Origin: Flavobacterium luteolum
GTDB taxonomy: Bacteria; Bacteroidota; Bacteroidia; Flavobacteriales; Flavobacteriaceae
Assembly: GCF_027111275.1 (NCBI RefSeq)
Contig: NZ_CP114286.1
Coordinates: 4,574,501-4,638,500, forward strand
DNA length: 64,000 nt
Direction of reading: 5' to 3'
Part shown: positions 28,245-44,178 of the stretch, piece by piece
Position numbering within the stretch: position 1 is the stretch's first letter
How the letters are laid out: each line of letters begins with the position of its first letter
Translations under genes and position numbers: made by a program
The notes under the pieces: generated by a model
Database searches by the model: none
Told to the model about the DNA's origin: nothing
Seen by the model: only the letters and a program-made list of their open reading frames with translations

Positions 28245-29168
28245 ATGAAATCTTTTAATTTTTGGATCATCGCATTATTGTTTGCGGTTAGTTCCTGTAC
28301 AATTGATAAAACAGATTACGAAGCTGAAACCGGTTCTGAAGTTCCTGGAAATTACGAATTTAAAGAAGCAACTTCGTTTACAAGCGGTAACTATAAAATC
28401 ACTATAGATGCCTTAAATGGAACATTCTACAAAGGATATAATGAGCTTCACTTAAAAATTGTCAATACTCAGAACAATCAAGAACTGACTTCTTCTGCTG
28501 TAACTTTTCTGCCAATATTAAGTAACGCTGACGGAAGTAAAAGTTCATGTCCGCATGAGTATAATATAGCGTACGATGCTGCTAACAAATATTACAGCGG
28601 ATATTCTGTTTTTACTGGCGAAAGCTCTACTACTGCTAGCTGGAAATTGTACATCAGTTTTACGGCTGATAATCAAAAACAGGAGATCAATAAAGATGTG
28701 ACAGTTGAAAAACAAACCAATAAGAATCTTAACATGACGGCTTTTGCAGGAAATGACGGAGAACAATATGTAATCGCGCTCGTTTCACCTCAAAAACCGA
28801 CAGTTTCAGAAAATCCGCTTGTGGCTGGGGTTTACAAATACAACAAACCAACAACGCCTGCGGGAGCTTTTCCAGATCCAACTCAATTTTCTTATTCAGA
28901 AGTTGCTGGATATACCTTAAAGTTAGATCCGAGAATGCCTGAACCTTCTATGGGAAATCATTCTTCGCCAAATAACAAGGATTTGGTTCAGGAAAATGAT
29001 GGTTTGTATCATGGTGTTGTTAATTATACGATGACAGGAAACTGGACTTTGAATTTAATTATGATGAATCAAAACGGATTAATCGTAAAAGGAACTGTAG
29101 TTCCAACGGATCACACGCCAGGAGTAGAAGGCGTGAAAAGCGAACTATATATTGATACTTTATTCTAA
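28245..29168 (+). CDS. Met/His-rich periplasmic lipoprotein, FixH/YtkA-like
   Basis: This 307-residue lipoprotein has a lipobox VSSC (Cys18) and two beta-rich modules. The C-terminal one contains LDPRMPEPSMGNHSSPNN, followed by YHGVVNYTMTGNWTLNL, resembling the YtkA/FixH-like pattern in which Met and His bind copper. The N-terminal module has a weaker version (LPILS...SSCPHEY). It ends 4 bp before the TonB receptor ATG. A periplasmic copper carrier for the receptor is the best guess. The 258-bp gap upstream has repeat-like caaattccaaattc text only. Confidence 0.72.
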   Translation: MKSFNFWIIALLFAVSSCTIDKTDYEAETGSEVPGNYEFKEATSFTSGNYKITIDALNGTFYKGYNELHLKIVNTQNNQELTSSAVTFLPILSNADGSKSSCPHEYNIAYDAANKYYSGYSVFTGESSTTASWKLYISFTADNQKQEINKDVTVEKQTNKNLNMTAFAGNDGEQYVIALVSPQKPTVSENPLVAGVYKYNKPTTPAGAFPDPTQFSYSEVAGYTLKLDPRMPEPSMGNHSSPNNKDLVQENDGLYHGVVNYTMTGNWTLNLIMMNQNGLIVKGTVVPTDHTPGVEGVKSELYIDTLF

Positions 29169-29172
29169 TAAC

Positions 29173-31152
29173 ATGAAATATATTATAATGCTGCTTTTTT
29201 TGGGATTGTCGGTAACAGCACAAAATCAGCATGCACATCACGACAGCATCAAAAACTTAGAAGAAGTAACCGTAAAAAATGCCACAAAAAAGAAAATTGA
29301 AACCGAGATGAAAATGGCAGTTTCTGTTGATGAATTTCTATCATCATCGGATAATATCAGTTTTATAAAACGTGGAGCTTATGCTTGGGAACCTTTATTG
29401 AACAATATGAGCACCGAACGTTCTACGGTTACTATTGACGGAATGCACGTTTTTGGCGCTTGTACTGATAAAATGGACCCGATTACGTCTTATGTAGAGA
29501 GCAATAATCTAGCGGCAATTGATATTAAATCGGGGCAGGAGGGAAGCCTGCACGGGTCAACCATTGCAGGAAGCATCGATTTAAAACGAAAAAGCACGCC
29601 GTTTGGTCTTCAAAAGAAATGGAATGGAGCGTATCAAACTGGATTTGAGTTTAATAATAAGCAGTTTTTCAATTTAGGAAATATCTCTTATTCGGGAACT
29701 AAATTTGTGGCAGACGGAAGCATTTCGTACCGAACAGCCGATAATTATTCTGATGGAAATAACAATGAAGTAAAGCATTCACAATACAATAAATTCAACA
29801 CTTCATTGGGATTAGCTTATAAAACCAGCGACTTATCGTCATTACGATTGGATGCTATTTTTGATGTGGCAAAAGATGTAGGTTATCCTGCTTTGCCAAT
29901 GGATTTATGGCTTTCGCGCGCATTGATTACTTCGGCTTCTTATAAGCAATTGTTTGAAGAAGGTTTGGTTAGGGTAGTGGACACAAAAGTATATTTTAAT
30001 GCCATTGAACATTATATGGATGATACAACTCGACCAGAAAATTTAGTTCATATGGATATGCCGGGCTGGAGCACGACTTACGGATTGGTTTCTAAAGCCA
30101 ATTTGAAAAAGAATAATTATTCGTCTGAAATTCAGTTGAATGCTTATGATAATTTGTCTATTGCGGAAATGCGTATGTACCCGCAGGACAGAAGTGAGAG
30201 AACAATGTTTGCTTATAGCTGGCCTTGGGTAACGACTCGTTTTGCTGGACTTTCTATGAATAATTCTTGGGAACTTTCGGAGAAAAGCACGGTAAATCTA
30301 GGAGGTTCTTTGGGAGTAAATTACAATTATTCTAAGTATATAGAGTTCAACTGGATTTTTCATCCTGGAGCGCCTCAGGAAAAAACGAGATTTCTGCCAA
30401 GTTTAAATGCTAGTTACCAATTAAATGTTGATCAATTTAATTTTTCTGTTGGAACGGGTTATGGCCATAGAGCGCCTTCTGTTTCTGAATGTTACGGATA
30501 TTACATTTATAATAGTTTTGACCTTTATGATTACATCGGAGATCCAAATCTGAAAAATGAAATTTCGTATGAAGGAAATGCAAGCGCAGGTTTTACAAAC
30601 GAAAGATTAAGCATTCAGGGAAAAATAAACTATTTCTACATTGACAATTATATTATTGGTAAAATCTTGAGTTTAGGAAGTCCAATGAATTACCAATCGG
30701 TTGGGGTAAAAGGATATACTTCGTTAGATTATGCAACACTTTTGAATATTTCTGCGAATGTGAGTTATGATATTTTGGAGCATCTTCACTGGAAAGGAAC
30801 GCTGACTTACGCCCGCGGAATGGACAATAAAGGAGGAAATCTGCCTTTTATACGTCCATTAAGTTATGTGACTTCATTGCATTATATGTATAAAAATTTC
30901 GGAATCCAGACTTCTGTAAATGGCGATTTTGAGCAGATTAACTACAGTCCGGAATATGGTGAAGATTTAACGGCGGCTTATGCAATTTGGAATATTTCTG
31001 CCAATTATTCTTTCACAATCAATAAAGTAAGAAGCACAGTGCAGATTGGAGCAGAGAATTTACTAAACGAATACTACAGCACATATGCCGACTGGGGAAA
31101 TATCCCGAGAATGGGACGCAATATTTTCACGTCTTTAAAATTGAATTTCTAG
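29173..31152 (+). CDS. OprC/NosA-like TonB-dependent copper receptor
   Basis: This 659-residue outer-membrane receptor has a signal peptide (ending LSVTAQ), a His-rich mature start (QHAHHD), a plug domain and a 22-strand-type barrel ending SLKLNF. The plug carries TVTIDGMHVFGACTDKMDP, giving CxxxM at Cys97/Met101, and the barrel has EHYMDD, giving HxM at His280/Met282. These are the two halves of the copper site described for OprC. ATG 29173 is preferred over 29152, which overlaps the lipoprotein gene. Partners at both sides (lipoprotein, MbnP, MbnH) support copper import. Confidence 0.88.
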   Translation: MKYIIMLLFLGLSVTAQNQHAHHDSIKNLEEVTVKNATKKKIETEMKMAVSVDEFLSSSDNISFIKRGAYAWEPLLNNMSTERSTVTIDGMHVFGACTDKMDPITSYVESNNLAAIDIKSGQEGSLHGSTIAGSIDLKRKSTPFGLQKKWNGAYQTGFEFNNKQFFNLGNISYSGTKFVADGSISYRTADNYSDGNNNEVKHSQYNKFNTSLGLAYKTSDLSSLRLDAIFDVAKDVGYPALPMDLWLSRALITSASYKQLFEEGLVRVVDTKVYFNAIEHYMDDTTRPENLVHMDMPGWSTTYGLVSKANLKKNNYSSEIQLNAYDNLSIAEMRMYPQDRSERTMFAYSWPWVTTRFAGLSMNNSWELSEKSTVNLGGSLGVNYNYSKYIEFNWIFHPGAPQEKTRFLPSLNASYQLNVDQFNFSVGTGYGHRAPSVSECYGYYIYNSFDLYDYIGDPNLKNEISYEGNASAGFTNERLSIQGKINYFYIDNYIIGKILSLGSPMNYQSVGVKGYTSLDYATLLNISANVSYDILEHLHWKGTLTYARGMDNKGGNLPFIRPLSYVTSLHYMYKNFGIQTSVNGDFEQINYSPEYGEDLTAAYAIWNISANYSFTINKVRSTVQIGAENLLNEYYSTYADWGNIPRMGRNIFTSLKLNF

Positions 31153-31161
31153 TAAATAAAA

Positions 31162-31530
31162 ATGAAAAAGGTTTTTAGTATCACAATGACAATTCTGTTC
31201 CTGCTGGTTTCTTTCCAGCAGGCGCTTATCATTGTACACTTTAAACTGAATCAAAATGCTATAGAAAAAGAGTTTTGTGTTAATAAAGCCAAGCCAGAAT
31301 TGCAATGTCACGGTAAATGCCATTTAAAGAAAGAGCTTCAGGAAACGGAAAAAAATACAGATTTAGAATTGAGAAGTATCAGCAAAAAGATTGATATTGC
31401 TTTAATTTCCAATATTGAATTTGCTGTTTCTGTTCCAAAAGTTATACATTCTAAAAAAGTTACTCTTTATAAAGAAAGCGATCAGACAGAACCTTGTCTC
31501 GAAATTTTTGTACCGCCGCCTATTTTGTAA
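31162..31530 (+). CDS. Small membrane-anchored Cys-motif protein, paralogue
   Basis: This 122-residue protein has an N-terminal hydrophobic segment (about 3-22), then C-x9-C-H-G-K-C-x-L-x-K and a coiled-coil-like charged stretch. The end FVPPPIL is Pro-rich, as is the FHPPLYTA end of the paralogue at 27609-27986. It begins 9 bp after the receptor stop codon and is surely in the same operon. The His next to the Cys makes a metal-binding role plausible. Confidence 0.7.
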   Translation: MKKVFSITMTILFLLVSFQQALIIVHFKLNQNAIEKEFCVNKAKPELQCHGKCHLKKELQETEKNTDLELRSISKKIDIALISNIEFAVSVPKVIHSKKVTLYKESDQTEPCLEIFVPPPIL

Positions 31531-31584
31531 TTGCCCCTTGTCAATTTAAAAATAGAATACCTTACAAAAATTTAAATTCATAAA

Positions 31585-32451
31585 ATGGAAACTTTAAAAA
31601 AATACCTTTTATTATCAGCAGCTGCTTTGGCATTTGCATCTTGTTCAAACGATGATAGCACTCCTGCAGCAAACAATCTAACGCTGGAATTCAATAATAC
31701 TTTCAAAGACAAGACAATTGTTTTAGGAGATGCGACTTCGGCTTCTGCAACTACAAATACTTCTGCTGCAGGACAAATTCATCATTTTTCCGAAGTAAAA
31801 TATGTGATCAGTAACATTCGTCTTATAAAAGATGACGGAAGTGAAGTGCCTTACAATGTAAATGATTTAGATAAAGGTGCAACGGTTATTGATCAGGCAA
31901 AGGCAGCTTCTTTGAGTTATGTTTTGAGTAATGTGCCATCTGCAACATACAAGCAAATTAAATTTGGTTTAGGAATCAAGACAGAACAAAATACTTTAGA
32001 CCAAACAAGATTTCCTAAATTTTATGCAGCTGCTGGAGCTAATGACACTCAGATGATGTGGGAATGGGGAACTGGATACCGTTTTACAAAAGTAGAAGGT
32101 TTTTATGATACGGATAATAAAGTAATGTCTATTCATACCGGAAGTACTGTTGCTGGAACAGAAGGTGCTTACACGCAAGGTGTTAATGCTTATAGAGATG
32201 TTACATTAAGCCTTACAACAAATGCAGTGGTTGGAAGTAAAGCTCCAAAAATCAAAATTAAAGCTGATTTTGATAAATTATTGAGTGGAAAAATCAATAC
32301 AATTACATTATCAACAGGAACAGGTATGAGTGACAATGCTACTCCAAATGTGCATACTGCAGCTCAAATGGTAAAATTTGTGGACAATCTGGGAGGAAAC
32401 GGAACAAACGATATTTCAGGAATGTTTTCTGTAACTAGTGTAGAAAACTAA
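31585..32451 (+). CDS. mbnP: MbnP-family copper-binding lipoprotein
   Basis: This 288-residue lipoprotein (lipobox FASC, Cys20) matches the MbnP family: LTLEFNNTF near the start, QIHHFSEVKYVISNIRLIKDDG, FGLGIKTEQNT and MMWEWGTGYRFTKVEGFY with Trp159 and Trp161. In characterised MbnP/MbnH pairs, the di-heme MbnH oxidises a conserved Trp of MbnP to kynurenine and thereby makes a copper site; which Trp is modified here cannot be told by eye. The mbnH gene follows after 56 bp. There is no methanobactin gene nearby, as is usual for TonB-linked MbnPH pairs. Confidence 0.88.
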   Translation: METLKKYLLLSAAALAFASCSNDDSTPAANNLTLEFNNTFKDKTIVLGDATSASATTNTSAAGQIHHFSEVKYVISNIRLIKDDGSEVPYNVNDLDKGATVIDQAKAASLSYVLSNVPSATYKQIKFGLGIKTEQNTLDQTRFPKFYAAAGANDTQMMWEWGTGYRFTKVEGFYDTDNKVMSIHTGSTVAGTEGAYTQGVNAYRDVTLSLTTNAVVGSKAPKIKIKADFDKLLSGKINTITLSTGTGMSDNATPNVHTAAQMVKFVDNLGGNGTNDISGMFSVTSVEN

Positions 32452-32461
32452 ATTATATTTC

Positions 32462-32490
32462 AGAGCCGTCTGAATTAAAAAGACGGCTCT
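32462..32490 (+). terminator. Intercistronic hairpin between mbnP and mbnH
   Basis: AGAGCCGTCT (32462-32471) pairs perfectly with AGACGGCTCT (32481-32490), 9-nt loop. No U run follows, so it is more likely a partial terminator or mRNA-stabilising hairpin than a full stop. Confidence 0.6.
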
Positions 32491-32507
32491 ATTTAAAATT
32501 CATTAAA

Positions 32508-33527
32508 ATGAAAAAAAAAGTCAGCTTTATTATAATTGTAATCTTTTTCACTTCTTGTAGCAGTAGTGATTCTGATGAAACTTATTTTGATAATCCTGAG
32601 CTTTCATTACATATTCCCACAGATTTTCCAGAGGTAAACAGTTATGTGAGTTTGAACAAGCCTACAAAATATGGAGCTGAATTGGGCGAAAAGCTTTTTT
32701 CTGATAAAAGATTTAGCGCGGACAATACAATTTCATGTTCAAGCTGTCATATTCAAGCAAATGCTTTTGCAGATCATAATGCACGAGCAATTGGTATTGA
32801 AGGAAGAGTCGGACTTAGAAATGCACCACCGCTTCAGAATTTAATGTTTTTAAAGTTCTTTAATTGGGATGGGAGCAGACTCCAGTTAGAAACACAGCCA
32901 TTAGTGCCAATTATTACGCACGAAGAAATGGATTCTTCGATTCTAGAAGTGATCGGAAAAATTAAAGACGATGCTTTTTATAAAAACTTATTTAAAAAAG
33001 CTTTTGGAGACCAAGAAATTACAGCTGATAGAATTTATCAAAGCATCGCTCAATTTGAATATACTTTAATCTCGGCTAATAGTAAATACGATAAAGTAAA
33101 ACGAAAAGAAGGTCAGACGTTTACTGAGAGTGAAGCGGCGGGTTATGCGACGTTTCAGCAAAAATGTGCCAGCTGTCATAGTACAGAATTGTTTACAGAC
33201 CAAAGTTTTAGAAATATTGGATTTCCGCTAAATACAGATTCTAATGAGGCGGGAAGAGGAAGAGTTACTGGAATTTCATCTGATTTTATGAGTTTTAGAG
33301 TTCCGAGTTTGCGTAATGTTGAATATACGGCGCCTTACGGAAGTTTTGGACAGTTCGCGACTTTAAAATCTGTTTTGGATTATTTTGACAATGGTGTTTT
33401 GGAAGCAGAGAATCTAGATCCTATTTTTAAAAATAATGGTAACAGAATTCCGCTTACAGAATTGGAAAAAGAAAACCTTATTGCGTTCATGAAAACTTTG
33501 AGCGACAAAGATTTTATAGGGAAGTAA
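32508..33527 (+). CDS. mbnH: MbnH-like di-heme cytochrome c peroxidase-family protein
   Basis: This 339-residue lipoprotein (FTSC, Cys17) has two c-type heme motifs: C77-S-S-C80-H and C220-A-S-C223-H. Its layout fits the bacterial CcP/MauG superfamily, and its place directly after mbnP assigns it to MbnH, which installs kynurenine in MbnP using oxidising equivalents. Segments such as GEKLFSDKRFS, LRNAPPLQNLMF and FRVPSLRNVEYTAPYGSFGQF are typical. The spacing to mbnP is 56 bp with a hairpin in between. A generic peroxidase cannot be excluded by sequence alone. Confidence 0.88.
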   Translation: MKKKVSFIIIVIFFTSCSSSDSDETYFDNPELSLHIPTDFPEVNSYVSLNKPTKYGAELGEKLFSDKRFSADNTISCSSCHIQANAFADHNARAIGIEGRVGLRNAPPLQNLMFLKFFNWDGSRLQLETQPLVPIITHEEMDSSILEVIGKIKDDAFYKNLFKKAFGDQEITADRIYQSIAQFEYTLISANSKYDKVKRKEGQTFTESEAAGYATFQQKCASCHSTELFTDQSFRNIGFPLNTDSNEAGRGRVTGISSDFMSFRVPSLRNVEYTAPYGSFGQFATLKSVLDYFDNGVLEAENLDPIFKNNGNRIPLTELEKENLIAFMKTLSDKDFIGK

Positions 33528-39143: not shown

Positions 39144-39174
39144 TTTGGGAACTAAAATTTTTAACATACTTTTG
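39144..39174 (+). promoter_or_regulatory. Sigma-A promoter of SusC/SusD operon
   Basis: TTTG (39144-39147) and TACTTTTG (39167-39174) are 19 bp apart, a full match to the Bacteroidetes -33/-7 consensus. Transcription from here gives a leader of about 370 nt before the SusC-like gene. The gap 38915-39549 holds this promoter, the leader ORF and the hairpin. Confidence 0.7.
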
Positions 39175-39396
39175 TTCTATCAAATTAGTAGAGTTTAAAA
39201 TTTAGTTAGAAATACAGAGATTAAAACCTTATCATTTCATTTTCAGAAATATAAAAGCATAAGACGTTTACACCTTATGCATCACTACGGTTAAAATTCC
39301 TCTTTTTAAATTCATTATAGATTTTTAATGACACTATCCTGAACAAGGGTAAAAATTGTATAGGCCAAATAAAATAATAATCTAAAAAAAGTAAAA

Positions 39397-39423
39397 ATGA
39401 AAAAACGAATGTGCTGCAGATAA
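39397..39423 (+). CDS. Leader peptide MKKRMCCR, candidate
   Basis: An eight-residue ORF, MKKRMCCR with stop TAA, lies in the long leader of the SusC/SusD operon. It has consecutive Cys codons (39412-39417) placed just before a stable hairpin (39431-39458). The Cys-codon segment TGCTGCA is exactly complementary to TGCAGCA (39443-39449) in the hairpin, so ribosome position could decide between two folds, as in amino-acid attenuators. Translation is not demonstrated. Confidence 0.55.
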   Translation: MKKRMCCR

Positions 39424-39458
39424 AAAAAGAAACCATTTCTGTTGCAGCAGAAATGGTT
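39412..39458 (+). promoter_or_regulatory. Attenuator-like alternative hairpins
   Basis: Stem AACCATTTCTG (39431-39441) pairs with CAGAAATGGTT (39448-39458) over a 6-nt loop. The competing pairing is TGCTGCA (39412-39418) with TGCAGCA (39443-39449). The two are mutually exclusive. No U run follows, so Rho or translation-related control is more likely than intrinsic termination. Confidence 0.5.
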
Positions 39459-39549
39459 GGAGTTTAAAGAAATTGTCATCTCTAAAAGGAAAGCAGGAAT
39501 AGTAAAAATCTGTTCACAGCTCGCCTTATTATTAAACTAAAACAAAGTA

Positions 39550-42500
39550 ATGAAAATAAAATTAAAAAGATATGCTTGGTTATGTATTTTGTTGATTACC
39601 ATAGGAGTTAAAGCTCAAGATACTAAGCCTTTGATTCAGTCTAAACTGGAAGGAACAGTAGTCGATGCCGTTACAAAAGAGCCAATTATTGGGGCTTCGG
39701 TTACTATTAAAGGAACTACACATGGTGTTATCACAGATACAGATGGAAAATTTTTCTTCCAAACAGGACAAAAATTCCCTTATACGCTTTTAATTAGTTA
39801 TTTAGGATATAAAAAAGAAGAAGTTGTAGTTAACAAAAACGCGATTGTTATTGATCTTACCGAAGAACAAAATGCATTGTCTGAAGTAGTAGTTACGGCA
39901 CTTGGAATTTCAAAAGAAAAGAAATCTTTAGGATACACGACTCAAGCCGTTAAAGGAAAAGAATTGGCAACTACAAAAGAAACCAACTTTTTGAATGCTC
40001 TTTCGGGTAAAGTGGCGGGTGTTCGTATTACCAATTCACAAGGAGATATGGGATCTTCACGTATTATTATTCGTGGAGAAACTTCTATCGCAGGAAATAA
40101 CCAGCCGCTTTTTGTGGTAGACGGAGTTCCTGTAGATAATTCACAATTGAATTTTGGTGGAGCTACACGTGATTTTAGAAATGCAATTGCCGATTTGAAT
40201 CCGCAGGACATTGAAACTTTGACAGTTTTGAAAGGACCAAATGCTGCTGCTCTTTACGGATCGCGTGCTGCGCATGGTGTAGTGCTTATTACAACAAAAT
40301 CCGGAAAAGGTCAAAAATCAGGATATGGAGTTACTTTTAATACTGGTATAACCGTTTCTCAAGTCGCTACGTTACCTTCTTTCCAGAATAGTTTCGGACA
40401 AGGTTCTAATGGAAGATTTAGCTACGTAGACGGAAAAGGAGGAGGAGTTAATGATGGTGTTGATGAAAGCTGGGGACCAAGATTGGATGGCCGTCTTATT
40501 CCGCAGTTTTATTCTAAAGGTGAAGCAGTTCCTTTTGTGGCACACCCAAATAATGTGAAGGACTTCTTTAACACCGGACTTACGTATGACAATAGTGTTT
40601 CTATTGCAAAATCTAATGAAAAATCGGATTTCCGTTTAGGTGTAAACAACCAAAAACAGCTTGGAACTGTACCGAACAGTGAAATAAACAAAACAAACTT
40701 TACAATTAATACCAATTATCAGATTTCTGAAAATGTAAAAGTTGGGGTTAATGCGAATTATATTGTAACGAATTCTCCACAATTGCCAGGTGGTCCATCT
40801 GGTGGACGTGCGGCAGGTGTAATGCTTCAGTTTCTTTGGTTCGGACGTCAAGTTGACATCAATGAATTGGATAAAGACTGGAACACTAACTGGAATAACA
40901 GTTACTATAGCAACCCATATTGGAATGCGTATTACAATACAACAAGCCAACAGCGTAACCGTATAATTGGAGATATTCACTTAGATGCGAAATTGGCTGA
41001 AGGACTTAACTTTAGATTCCGTACAGGTGTTGATTATTACAACGATCGCAGAAAATATACTATCAAGTATGGTACAAACGGAACTCCTTTCGGATCGTAT
41101 GCAGAAGATGCTTACACTGTAAATGAACAAAATACTGAGGGTATATTTCAATATACAAAACAGCTTAATGATGATTTTACTGTAGATGCACTTGCTGGAT
41201 TCAACATTCGTAATCATAGCGATGCCAACAACTATCAGAAAGCGCCACGTTTAGCGGTTCCAGATTTGTATACTTTGACAAACTCGAGAGATCCGTTAAC
41301 GTCATCAAATTCATTATCTAGATTGAGAGTTTACAGTGCTTACGCTTCTGCTCAGTTTGGTTTTAGAAATTATGCTTTCTTGAACGTTACGGCACGTAAT
41401 GATTGGTCTTCTACGTTACCAAGCAGCAACCGTTCTTATTTCTATCCTTCTTTTAACGGAAGTGTAGTTTTAACCGATGCATTAAACATCAAGAGCAGTA
41501 CGCTTGATTTCTTAAAAGTGAGAGGTGGATGGTCTGAAGTAGGTAACGATGCAGATCCGTACCAATTGGCTACGGTTTACAATTTCCAAACTGCTTTTGA
41601 CGGAAACCCAATTCAGACTTCTTCTCAAAAGAAATTAAATGAAAACTTAAAACCAGAAACAACTCGTTCTACAGAGGTAGGTCTTGAAGCTTCTTTCTGG
41701 AAAAACAGACTTCATTTTGATGTAGCGTATTATAATACGAATAGTTTTGACCAGATTTTAGAAATAAAAACGACAGCGGCGAGTGGTTATACTTCACAGT
41801 TAATCAATGCAGGTAAAATTAACAATCAAGGTATAGAAGTGCAGTTGGACGGAAATCCAGTTCAAACAGAAAACTTCAAATGGAATGTGGCTTTAAATTA
41901 TTCTAAAAATAAAAGTAAAGTAGAAATTCTAGATTACGCGGGAGATATTAAAAACTACACAATTGGTTCTTCTGGAGGTGTTGATGTTTTGGCATCTGTT
42001 GGACAAGCTTATGGAGCACTTTACGGAACAGCCTATGAGCGTAATGCAAGCGGTAATATTGTGGTAGGAGCAAACGGTCTTCCAAAAGCAGATCCGACAA
42101 AAAAAGTTTTAGGACATTATACGCCAGATTATTTAGCAGGTCTTACAAATACTTTGACATACAAGAATCTTGAACTTTCGTTCCTTGTTGATGCTAGTGT
42201 TGGTGGAGAACTTTTCTCTGGAACAAATAGAACAGGAAACTATACAGGAGTTTTAGCACAGACTCTTCCAGGGCGTGGTGCTGAAAACGGCGGATTAAGC
42301 TATTACTATCCAGGAAACAATACGGCTAACCCGAAAACTCTCGTAGCTGGCGGAGCTGCTCCAAGCGGAGTAACGGTTTATGATGATGGAATGATTTTCG
42401 AAGGTGTATTTGCAGACGGAACTCCAAACAATAAATTGATTAGCGCGCAGGAATATTACAAAGCGTCTTACAACATTAGCGAAGCATATGTCTATAGCTC

Positions 42501-42741
42501 AACTTTTGTAAAAATGAGAGAGATAAAACTTACTTATAATGTTGACAAAAAGCTAGTTAAAAAACTGGGATTAGAAGGAGCAAGTATTACTGCTGCTGGT
42601 CGTAACTTATTCTTTATTTACAAAGATGCACCAAATATTGACCCAGAAACGGCTTTCAATACAGGAAATGCACAAGGATTAGAAAGCTTAGCGTTGCCAA
42701 CAACGAGAAACTTCAGTCTTAACCTTAATGTTAAATTTTAA
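39550..42741 (+). CDS. SusC/RagA-family TonB-linked outer-membrane transporter
   Basis: This 1063-residue receptor has a signal peptide (ending GVKAQ), a carboxypeptidase-D regulatory-like domain (about 32-110; GTVVDAVTKEPIIGASVTIKGT), a TonB-box-like LSEVVVTALG and plug (about 110-240; NFLNALSGKVAGVRIT, RGETSIAGNNQPLFVVDGVPV, ALYGSRAAHGVVLITTKSG), and a long barrel ending SLNLNVKF. It would form the barrel of a SusCD complex with the lipoprotein 12 bp downstream. The ligand is unknown; no glycosidase, sulfatase or peptidase gene is adjacent. The leader suggests response to cysteine or sulfur supply. Confidence 0.95.
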   Translation: MKIKLKRYAWLCILLITIGVKAQDTKPLIQSKLEGTVVDAVTKEPIIGASVTIKGTTHGVITDTDGKFFFQTGQKFPYTLLISYLGYKKEEVVVNKNAIVIDLTEEQNALSEVVVTALGISKEKKSLGYTTQAVKGKELATTKETNFLNALSGKVAGVRITNSQGDMGSSRIIIRGETSIAGNNQPLFVVDGVPVDNSQLNFGGATRDFRNAIADLNPQDIETLTVLKGPNAAALYGSRAAHGVVLITTKSGKGQKSGYGVTFNTGITVSQVATLPSFQNSFGQGSNGRFSYVDGKGGGVNDGVDESWGPRLDGRLIPQFYSKGEAVPFVAHPNNVKDFFNTGLTYDNSVSIAKSNEKSDFRLGVNNQKQLGTVPNSEINKTNFTINTNYQISENVKVGVNANYIVTNSPQLPGGPSGGRAAGVMLQFLWFGRQVDINELDKDWNTNWNNSYYSNPYWNAYYNTTSQQRNRIIGDIHLDAKLAEGLNFRFRTGVDYYNDRRKYTIKYGTNGTPFGSYAEDAYTVNEQNTEGIFQYTKQLNDDFTVDALAGFNIRNHSDANNYQKAPRLAVPDLYTLTNSRDPLTSSNSLSRLRVYSAYASAQFGFRNYAFLNVTARNDWSSTLPSSNRSYFYPSFNGSVVLTDALNIKSSTLDFLKVRGGWSEVGNDADPYQLATVYNFQTAFDGNPIQTSSQKKLNENLKPETTRSTEVGLEASFWKNRLHFDVAYYNTNSFDQILEIKTTAASGYTSQLINAGKINNQGIEVQLDGNPVQTENFKWNVALNYSKNKSKVEILDYAGDIKNYTIGSSGGVDVLASVGQAYGALYGTAYERNASGNIVVGANGLPKADPTKKVLGHYTPDYLAGLTNTLTYKNLELSFLVDASVGGELFSGTNRTGNYTGVLAQTLPGRGAENGGLSYYYPGNNTANPKTLVAGGAAPSGVTVYDDGMIFEGVFADGTPNNKLISAQEYYKASYNISEAYVYSSTFVKMREIKLTYNVDKKLVKKLGLEGASITAAGRNLFFIYKDAPNIDPETAFNTGNAQGLESLALPTTRNFSLNLNVKF

Positions 42742-42753
42742 AAACTCGGAATC

Positions 42754-44178
42754 ATGCTAAAAAAACTATCATATACAATACTGTTTGCATTGGCACTGAG
42801 CTCTTGCAGTGATACTTTAGACGATATAAATAAAAACCCAAATGCAACTGAAACTCCGTTAGCGCCTTATTTGCTAACAGGAACCTTAAAACAAGGAGCA
42901 GATTTATATTGGGGAGATGCCAATAACTTTAACTCGACTTTGTTATTTGCACAGCATTGGGCAAAAATCCAATATACAGAACCAGATCGATACGATGTTT
43001 CGAATGCTTCTTTCACCACATTGTGGGATAAAGGATATTCGACTCTAATTACAGATTTGAACACCATTTTAAAATTTCCAGATGCGCAAGCTAATTCTAA
43101 TTATAAAGGGATTGCTTTAACGCTTCGTTCATGGACATTTTTATTGCTGACAGATGCTTACGGAAGCATTCCGTACAAAGAAGCGGGGCAAAATGTAACG
43201 CCAGCGTACAATACTCAAAAAGAAGTGTACACAGGATTGCTTGAAGATTTAAAACAAGCTCAATCGCTATTAAATCCTGCAAACGGAAGTGTTATTGGAG
43301 ACTTGGCTTATAAAGGAGATATCTTGAAATGGAAAAAACTGGTTAACTCACTTCGTTTGCGTATTGCTTTGAGAATTTCTGACAGAGAACCTGCTTTGGC
43401 CAAACAAGTTGCAATAGATGCTACAAGTGATGCGGCAGGTTTAATAAGCAGTAATACCGAAACATTCCAGTTTGTTTATACCAGTTCGCCACAGCAAAAC
43501 CCTGCTTCAGCTTGGTTTGAAACGAGAGACGATTTCCGTATTTCGAAAACTATGGTCGACCAATTATACGCATTATCAGATCCGCGTTTGCCAGTTTTTG
43601 CGCAATTGCCATCAGACGCAAGCGTAGGTAAATATGTTGGAGGAGCAAACGGATTATCAAATAGTGATGCAAATAGCCAAGGTTTTGCTAAAACATCAAA
43701 ACCGGGAACTTATTTCCTTACTTCGGCTTCGCCAGCAGTAATTGCTTCTTACTCTGAAACTCTGTTTAATCTTGCAGAAGCTGCTGCACGCGGTTATATT
43801 TCTGGAGACGCAGAACAATATTATAATAATGCTATTACAGCTTCTTTAAATCAGTTTGGAGTTAACAATGCGACAACTATTTCAACTTATCTGAATCAGG
43901 CAAGTGTAAAATACGATGCTTCAAATTATGCTAAATCAATTGGTACGCAAAAATGGATTGCTTTCTTCGGACAAGGTCTTGATGCTTTTACAGAATGGAG
44001 AAGATTGGATTATCCAGTGTTAACAGCTGGTCCAGCTACTGTTTTGGACGGAAAAATTCCTTCGCGTCTTTTCTATCCTGGTACAGAACAGTCACTAAAC
44101 GGAGCTAGCTATCAAGCAGCTGTTACAGAACAAGGAAAAGATTTATTGACAACCAAATTATGGTTTGATGTGAAATAA
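42754..44178 (+). CDS. SusD/RagB-family nutrient-binding lipoprotein
   Basis: This 474-residue lipoprotein (LSSC, Cys18) starts with CSDTLDDINKNPNATETP, the usual beginning of the SusD-like_2 group, and has TPR-like helices and LRSWTFLLLTDAYGSIPYKEA, the signature helix of the family. It forms the lid of the SusC barrel on the cell surface. It is 12 bp after susC, and a terminator follows at 44202-44237. Ligand unknown. Confidence 0.94.
   Translation: MLKKLSYTILFALALSSCSDTLDDINKNPNATETPLAPYLLTGTLKQGADLYWGDANNFNSTLLFAQHWAKIQYTEPDRYDVSNASFTTLWDKGYSTLITDLNTILKFPDAQANSNYKGIALTLRSWTFLLLTDAYGSIPYKEAGQNVTPAYNTQKEVYTGLLEDLKQAQSLLNPANGSVIGDLAYKGDILKWKKLVNSLRLRIALRISDREPALAKQVAIDATSDAAGLISSNTETFQFVYTSSPQQNPASAWFETRDDFRISKTMVDQLYALSDPRLPVFAQLPSDASVGKYVGGANGLSNSDANSQGFAKTSKPGTYFLTSASPAVIASYSETLFNLAEAAARGYISGDAEQYYNNAITASLNQFGVNNATTISTYLNQASVKYDASNYAKSIGTQKWIAFFGQGLDAFTEWRRLDYPVLTAGPATVLDGKIPSRLFYPGTEQSLNGASYQAAVTEQGKDLLTTKLWFDVK

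Follow-up and report, generated by a model that had tools for sequence, protein, structure and literature searches.

The stretch of DNA analysed here, referred to below as the window, comprises 64,000 nucleotides (G000:C1:4574501-4638500) of the 5.36-Mb genome of Flavobacterium luteolum, and contains an importer operon of the SusC/SusD type preceded by a leader with a short ORF rich in Cys codons. The SusC gene, one of 46 in the genome that score above the cut-off, has its start codon at 39550, which gives a leader of about 370 nt. Upstream of it, TTTG at 39144-39147, a 19-nt spacer and TACTTTTG at 39167-39174 can be read directly and fit the promoter consensus of Bacteroidota; a similar element of the TA-N2-TTTG type is located upstream of the operator-like motif in the other leaders listed. 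No sulfatase gene adjoins the window importer, whereas two sister SusC loci with Cys-codon leaders do have sulfatase-like genes. An Rfam scan of the whole window at gathering scores gave no matches. The features of the locus are collected in Table 1. An earlier note on this DNA had described the promoter, the leader length, the ORF MKKRMCCR (here uORF2), the 11-bp hairpin (here HP1) and a complementarity between the Cys codons and that hairpin, TGCTGCA (39412-39418) to TGCAGCA (39443-39449), and on direct reading all of these proved to be correctly placed. The motif at the expected transcript start, the decayed first ORF (uORF1), the second hairpin (HP2) and the antisense U-tract of HP1 did not figure in it.

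Table 1. Features of the leader and of the importer genes that follow it (positions in the window).
Feature	Position	Strand	Basis or remark
Bacteroidota-type promoter, TTTG-N19-TACTTTTG	39144..39174	+	sequence read directly
Operator-like motif CTATCAAATTAGTAGAGTTTAAA, at the presumed start of the transcript	39177..39199	+	genome matches, leader comparison
Decayed first leader ORF, uORF1, MHHYG-stop	39277..39294	+	aligned position is that of MCFCC-stop/MCCCC-stop in other leaders
Leader ORF uORF2, MKKRMCCR-stop, tandem Cys codons	39397..39423	+	direct reading, leader comparison
A-tract directly 5' of HP1 (minus-strand U-tract)	39424..39432	+	leader comparison
Hairpin HP1, 11 bp, AACCATTTCTG-TTGCAG-CAGAAATGGTT	39431..39458	+	minus strand terminator-like, then TCTTTTTTTA
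Candidate third ORF, MVGV-stop, start inside the HP1 3' arm	39453..39467	+	ATG conserved; coding candidate only
Hairpin HP2 between HP1 and SusC, compensatory changes	39486..39527	+	sense-strand structure
SusC/RagA family TonB-linked outer membrane protein	39550..42741	+	TIGR04056, 633 bits (cut-off 368)
SusD-like lipoprotein (SusD-like_2)	42754..44178	+	PF12771, 358 bits

Related leaders were collected in several steps. In a first search of 59 relatives they were found in six (L002-L007), one of which, from G030, precedes a sulfatase-linked paralogue, and two further copies lie in the same genome as the window, at 540 kb and 552 kb. Of 299 congeneric genomes, 76 matched a model of the ORF together with the hairpin (R1) at E ≤ 0.05, with E below 0.001 in 70, and 2 of 249 genomes of the family matched, both again Flavobacterium; since the ORF is part of this model, the copies found are biased towards having one. 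The set of 116 leaders analysed comprises 30 and 80 from the R1 match list and 6 from the earlier searches, the R1 places outside it being mostly weaker, with a few strong ones, e.g., in G089. Because R1 contains the ORF, a scan with HP1 only is the cleaner test of conservation, though its matches come mostly from the genus already sampled and in part from genomes used before. It gave at least 120 loci, and among the 120 listed a short ORF lies just upstream of HP1 in 119, with at least one Cys in 110 of the ORFs and at least two in 97. Of the 80 titled loci among these, 79 are from Flavobacterium or Flavobacteriaceae and one (L229) from a Neomarinimicrobiota MAG, the latter being the single listed locus lacking a short ORF. 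The earlier note had proposed looking for ORFs of the MKKR.CCR type ahead of hairpins in leaders of other SusC-like genes of Bacteroidetes, and such ORFs do recur widely before HP1 in the genus.

In all 116 leaders the short ORF ends 2-11 nt ahead of HP1. At least one Cys codon is present in 108 of the 116 copies and at least two in 88, and among 80 distinct leader ORFs Cys makes up 162 of 634 residues (25.6%), compared with 0.62% in 42 window ORFs; TGT is used 89 times and TGC 73 times. The Cys runs differ in length and codon use between leaders and are kept across whole-codon indels, as in MKKRMCCR, MRKRMCCCR, MEKRMCCSCK, MKTMQTCCCK, MKKMQSCCCCK, MKLMCCK and MKRSCC. The eight copies devoid of Cys (MKKRMHS, MKKRMQYR, MKKRMQLR and similar) all belong to the window's own group. 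The pattern ATGTGYTKYTGYTGYTAA was sought in 395 Flavobacteriales genomes and occurs at 29 places in 21 of them: of 12 loci read, four (L294, L299, L315 and L318) belong to this type of leader and to the genus, and six (L291, L297, L305, L308, L310 and L316) look like chance. Another, L311, is doubtful, and at L309, in a genome of another family (G038), a similar Cys ORF, MNKMIINISCTMCCCC-stop, stands before a TonB receptor and looks real. A conserved cysteine-codon leader of sulfur-linked SusC importers is real as judged by sequence, and the leader type appears confined to Flavobacterium among the matches listed, apart from one chance-like match.

The leaders were sorted by peptide and uORF1, and not by tree, into groups A (60, including 12 referred to as basal), B (52) and C (4). 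Among leaders with an identified motif, which sets aside four, a uORF1 with at least three Cys codons (MCFCC, MCICC, MCMCC, MCCCC and similar, each followed by a stop codon) is found in 49 of 49 from group B, 4 of 4 from group C and 11 of 12 basal group-A leaders, in none of the 47 from the window group. Where Cys-rich, uORF1 starts 108-125 nt past the motif, and its pN/pS is 0.10. The corresponding position in the window group holds decayed forms with the consensus MSCRC, and in the window copy the Cys codons are retained in uORF2 only, which starts 220 nt past the motif. Two Cys ORFs per leader would be the ancestral state. As to the candidate third ORF, all 116 copies have its ATG (MARLKEHLSL..., MVKLKEIV... 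and the window form), and coding was not borne out: the stop codon lies anywhere between 85 nt ahead of the start of SusC and 20 nt past it, or the frame is that of SusC, and pN/pS is not clearly below that of other frames, so that it is left as a candidate.

The link of the leader with cysteine and sulfur, suggested in the earlier note by the Cys codons, is now well supported by the company that the motif keeps in the genome and by Cys ORFs in other sulfur leaders. In 107 of the 116 leaders the motif CTATNNAATTAGTAG, located at the presumed start of the transcript, has its 15-base core with at most one mismatch. Its form CTATNNAATTAGTAGAGTTTAAA occurs at nine places in this genome at up to three mismatches, three of them at SusC genes with Cys leaders, two of which have SusD and sulfatase-like genes downstream (arylsulfatase being the top NCBIfam name, at a score under the cut-off). 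The fourth is an operon of a serine O-acetyltransferase-like (CysE-like) gene, scoring just under the cut-off, with genes of an encapsulin shell of family 2A and of the cysteine desulfurase cargo, which both exceed the cut-off, and its leader also carries MCFCC-stop. The remaining places are at an O-acetylhomoserine sulfhydrylase gene (over the cut-off), at a cysH cluster (cysH over the cut-off, the remaining genes named by eye), before an Rrf2-family gene (superfamily over the cut-off; CymR model 78 bits against a cut-off of 195), between a second Rrf2 gene and a TonB-type gene, nearer the latter, and at a weak ninth site (L053) with no evident sulfur gene nearby. In one relative (G017) an Rrf2 gene adjoins the window-type SusC gene. 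At most one mismatch being allowed, a strict pattern, the motif was found among 296 Bacteroidota genomes in 9, all of the same genus. It is a candidate for a sulfur-regulon site of the Rrf2/CymR type, the binding protein being presumed.

As a control, 30 of the 46 SusC loci over the cut-off were scanned, the window locus excluded, and the motif together with CC-type ORFs was present at only two, both sulfatase-linked; the scan covered 450 nt, and at one of the two the motif lies farther out and is known from the genome-wide motif search. Three other loci have looser Cys ORFs and no motif. A Cys/Met leader peptide followed by an intrinsic terminator precedes the O-acetylhomoserine sulfhydrylase gene in 18 of 18 loci scanned from a set of 25; in this genome the peptide is MKTIAKGNMMCCKMMQMCIQICCCQK-stop, and a second such peptide, MKFTVCNMMSCK..., precedes a TonB receptor. 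These two kinds of Cys/Met leader lie near each other in at least 10 of the 25 loci.

The fold z-score is -2.72, with 4 of 200 shuffles equally good. In HP1, 10 of 10 pairs are unchanged across 49 group-B sequences, so no covariation signal can come from HP1 there, and its closing pair is A-U in some leaders and G-C in others. Because a conserved A-tract precedes it, HP1 is terminator-like on the minus strand. The main rival to ribosome-mediated sensing starts from this, and we regard it as possible rather than probable: HP1 would be the intrinsic terminator of a cis-antisense RNA like those of the DonS family, 78-128 nt long and found at Bacteroides susC homologues (PMC7366714), starting near the SusC start and ending just past the Cys ORF, which would itself be a separate device or would set the extent of ribosome protection of the leader. 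The U-tract directly follows HP1 on the minus strand. Of 116 copies, 110 have the A-tract, taken as at least seven A in the 8 nt before HP1, compared with 1.9% of 8-mers drawn 200-60 nt upstream, a control that is not strict because the region near the uORF2 start is A-rich too. Non-Watson-Crick cells lean to the minus strand in HP1 (26 G-U against 6 on the plus strand) and to the sense strand in HP2 (136 against 12), although the lean of HP1 is not decisive, falling to 9 against 6 without the closing pair and standing at 13 against 6 over distinct hairpins. Only 2 of 28 other SusC leaders examined have a minus-strand terminator, and the distance from the start of HP1 to SusC, mostly about 115-130 nt, compares with the reported length of the DonS RNAs. 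Against the antisense RNA speak the 2-11 nt spacing of the Cys ORF stop to HP1, which it does not explain, and the want of a conserved consensus promoter on the minus strand downstream: no site occurs in 25% or more of the 48 window-group leaders; in group B one site is shared by 18 of 52 leaders, and among the basal leaders one is shared by 4 of 12. Still, HP1 may be an antisense terminator instead of, or besides, having a role in the sense strand.

The behaviour of HP1 in the sense strand was modelled by folding the leader with a ribosome placed on a Cys codon or on the stop codon, its leading edge assumed to lie 15 nt from the A-site codon, or with none. The modelled probability of HP1 is 0.92-1.00 in the first case, in agreement with the proposal of the earlier note that stalling at the Cys codons leaves the hairpin free, 0.11-0.30 in the second and 0.88-0.99 in the third. 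Since it shifts with ribosome position, HP1 could report that position. The pairing of HP2 and of the SusC start site is nearly constant throughout and HP1 is formed even without a ribosome, so that equilibrium folding gives no output step.

The earlier note had further supposed that free passage of the ribosome allows the Cys codons to pair with HP1 instead. The complementarity is real: the mean duplex energy of this alternative helix is -7.6 kcal/mol in group A and -13.1 in group B, HP1 itself having -13.2, and the helix is far stronger than with base-shuffled ORFs; 92.7% and 74.7% of its cells are paired. Swapped partners pair as well in 45 of 500 cases in group A and 149 of 500 in group B, and only with both groups pooled does the true pairing beat 500 of 500 swaps, which favours the supposition, yet may be caused by group ancestry. 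The eight Cys-less copies have 1-3 of the 7 alternative pairs left, whereas 40 other copies average 5.75. The covariation for which the earlier note had proposed a test is absent for this helix from both groups (49 group-B and 48 group-A sequences), which neither proves nor excludes it because both sides are fixed by the Cys codons and HP1, and without a ribosome it is HP1 that wins in the model.

HP2 does show compensatory changes. In the group-B alignment (A4, all but 2 of 51 distinct sequences) double changes affect four of its pairs and 53 cells; shuffles give 21 such cells, and none of 500 reaches 53, although 291 of 500 have as many pairs of this kind and all 500 as many pair types in the group. 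In group A (A5, the 12 basal leaders aside) 6 pairs and 27 cells change on both sides, all in HP2 (reached by 5 and 0 of 500 shuffles, respectively). Because the sequences are related, these shuffle counts are not probabilities.

HP2 is central to a second alternative, classical transcription attenuation, in which it would terminate weakly, its formation being decided by HP1 or by the helix of HP1 with the Cys codons. Attenuators of the trp/his type are marked by an ORF with control codons, a fit of these codons to the physiology of the regulated genes, a sense terminator, mutually exclusive helices that covary and a response to the amino acid via those codons. The run of control codons is present here; as to physiology, the motif is shared with cysteine, cysH and sulfatase-linked genes, but the window importer itself has no neighbouring sulfatase. 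HP2 is a conserved sense hairpin with a 3' flank that reads as moderately U-rich in the alignments, canonical attenuators occur at sulfur genes of the same genus, and the Cys:HP1 pairing outdoes every swap across groups. However, neither HP1 nor HP2 is followed by a U-tract on the sense strand, and hence there is no classical terminator, none having been found between the leader ORF and SusC; HP2 has a weak 3' flank and was not called by the terminator scan, which called nothing on the plus strand of the leader, and its pairing hardly differs between a ribosome on Cys, one on the stop codon and none. Inspection by eye showed an exchange pairing of HP1 with HP2 in some group-A leaders and not in group B, and none conserved in both. 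Classical attenuation is on these grounds unlikely. From the attenuation logic of the earlier note there remains the conserved Cys ORF before a TonB-linked importer, whereas the sense intrinsic terminator is missing.

That the short ORF is non-functional, an RNA or DNA element being conserved which happens to read MKKRMCCR, is very improbable, since against the eight Cys-less copies, the very high nucleotide conservation of the hairpin and the position-biased choice of Cys codons in group B stand the varied Cys runs with whole-codon indels, the low pN/pS (0.27 for the Cys codons of group-B uORF2, and the still lower uORF1 value), and further Cys ORFs both in many of the same leaders and at unrelated sulfur genes.

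The leader probably acts as a cysteine sensor that works through the ribosome and serves a sulfur-scavenging SusC/SusD importer, a reading drawn from sequence comparison and modelled folding. The Cys codons, the spacing of the stop codon to HP1, HP1 and HP2 are conserved, and the motif keeps the company of sulfur genes. A repressor, probably Rrf2/CymR-like, at the motif would set transcription by sulfur status, and the short ORF with its terminal Cys codons would be translated within the leader. With Cys-tRNA scarce, the ribosome would stall at the Cys codons upstream of HP1 and HP1 would fold; with ample cysteine it would reach the stop codon and keep HP1 open. The state of HP1 would be relayed to SusC via translation, mRNA stability or an antisense RNA ending at HP1, low cysteine presumably giving more SusC. 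Such a leader resembles ribosome-mediated attenuation, yet it is not classed as a classical attenuator because the defining sense terminator is missing. A bolder combination, which we consider quite unlikely, is a switch with two inputs, in which tandem poly-Cys ORFs read Cys-tRNA and the ribosome-controlled hairpin doubles as the conserved terminator of an RNA antisense to the start of SusC; the supply of cysteine would then set the reach of this RNA or its action on the importer.

If the sensor is as proposed, Cys-codon leaders would provide a rule for spotting, among SusC/SusD pairs as numerous as those of this genome, the ones that serve sulfur rather than carbon supply, and would tie the importer to a candidate sulfur regulon including the operon of the 2A encapsulin and cysteine desulfurase. 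They would also offer a test bed for attenuation in Bacteroidota, a phylum in which Shine-Dalgarno sites play a small part.

The open-licence literature searched yielded no report of leader ORFs with Cys codons from Bacteroidota; for F. psychrophilum, the transcriptome gave clues of leader-peptide attenuation before amino-acid operons, mentioned in general terms (PMC9723704). Polycysteine leader ORFs with cysteine-responsive attenuation are known from mycobacteria (Canestrari et al. 2020, as cited in PMC13236596), and with these the Flavobacterium ORFs share their shortness, the consecutive Cys codons and the location in leaders of sulfur genes. The mycobacterial ORFs are, as the title has it, leaderless and located at cysteine biosynthetic genes. 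No Cys ORF lies at the mRNA 5' end here: counted from the motif, and so from a presumed transcript start, uORF1, where Cys-rich, begins after 108-125 nt and uORF2 of the window after 220 nt; uORF2 precedes an outer-membrane importer, often as the second of two tandem Cys ORFs. The uORFC-8-2 motif, which precedes cysS in Rhodobacterales (PMC8632094), likewise combines tandem Cys codons in a leader ORF with stem structures; it differs in having a sense intrinsic terminator, in preceding the gene of cysteinyl-tRNA synthetase and in belonging to another phylum. With DonS the leader shares the geometry of an antisense terminator near the susC start, an intrinsic terminator opposite susC near its start being a feature of this family that is present here; no conserved antisense promoter of the known consensus was found in the leaders compared, and the DonS account, in its available part, is given without a Cys ORF, although antisense promoters of other types are also reported to exist (PMC7366714). 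Closest to hand are the O-acetylhomoserine sulfhydrylase attenuators of the same genus, which differ in their longer peptides, their Met codons and their sense-strand intrinsic terminators, but resemble the leader described here in having Cys-rich leader peptides and, in this genome, in standing under a related motif.

Read on the minus strand, HP1, the 11-bp hairpin 3' of the leader ORF, forms together with its A-tract a terminator-like structure (Table); the A-tract is conserved in 110 of the 116 related SusC leaders. A second hairpin of terminator-like form, also on the minus strand, lies within the window leader and adjoins the decayed uORF1. One match to the HP1 pattern, in a Neomarinimicrobiota MAG, is devoid of a leader ORF and is probably due to chance.

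Elsewhere in the genome of F. luteolum, a TonB receptor and O-acetylhomoserine sulfhydrylase are preceded by two Cys/Met leader peptides, with an intrinsic terminator after each; among 25 related loci, at least 10 have the two near each other. The encapsulin operon of the same genome carries both the sulfur motif, an operator-like site shared by several of its sulfur-linked loci, and a leader ORF, MCFCC-stop.

Features of the window and of other loci (bare coordinates, window)
Feature	Position	Position in G000:C1 (window's genome)	Strand
HP1 and A-tract, terminator-like	39422-39458		minus
Second terminator-like hairpin	39257-39280		minus
Serine O-acetyltransferase-like gene, family 2A encapsulin shell and cysteine desulfurase cargo, single operon	L050:10335-14461	559335-563461	
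Two Cys/Met leader peptides with terminators	L051:2950-6600	2632950-2636600	
Rrf2-family regulator gene, relative G017	L059:4347-4760		
Leader ORF MNKMIINISCTMCCCC-stop	L309, ~1500		minus
TonB receptor group	28245-33527		

In a relative, the Rrf2-family regulator gene is located upstream of, and divergent from, a SusC gene of the window type. Outside the family, in a different one of the same order, a leader ORF is found 157 nt upstream of a TonB receptor; its start region, inspected by eye, is able to pair with the sequence 3' of its own stop codon. In the window itself, a TonB receptor gene stands in a group with genes for small lipoprotein-like and cytochrome c peroxidase-like products; the group may be a metal-handling cluster.
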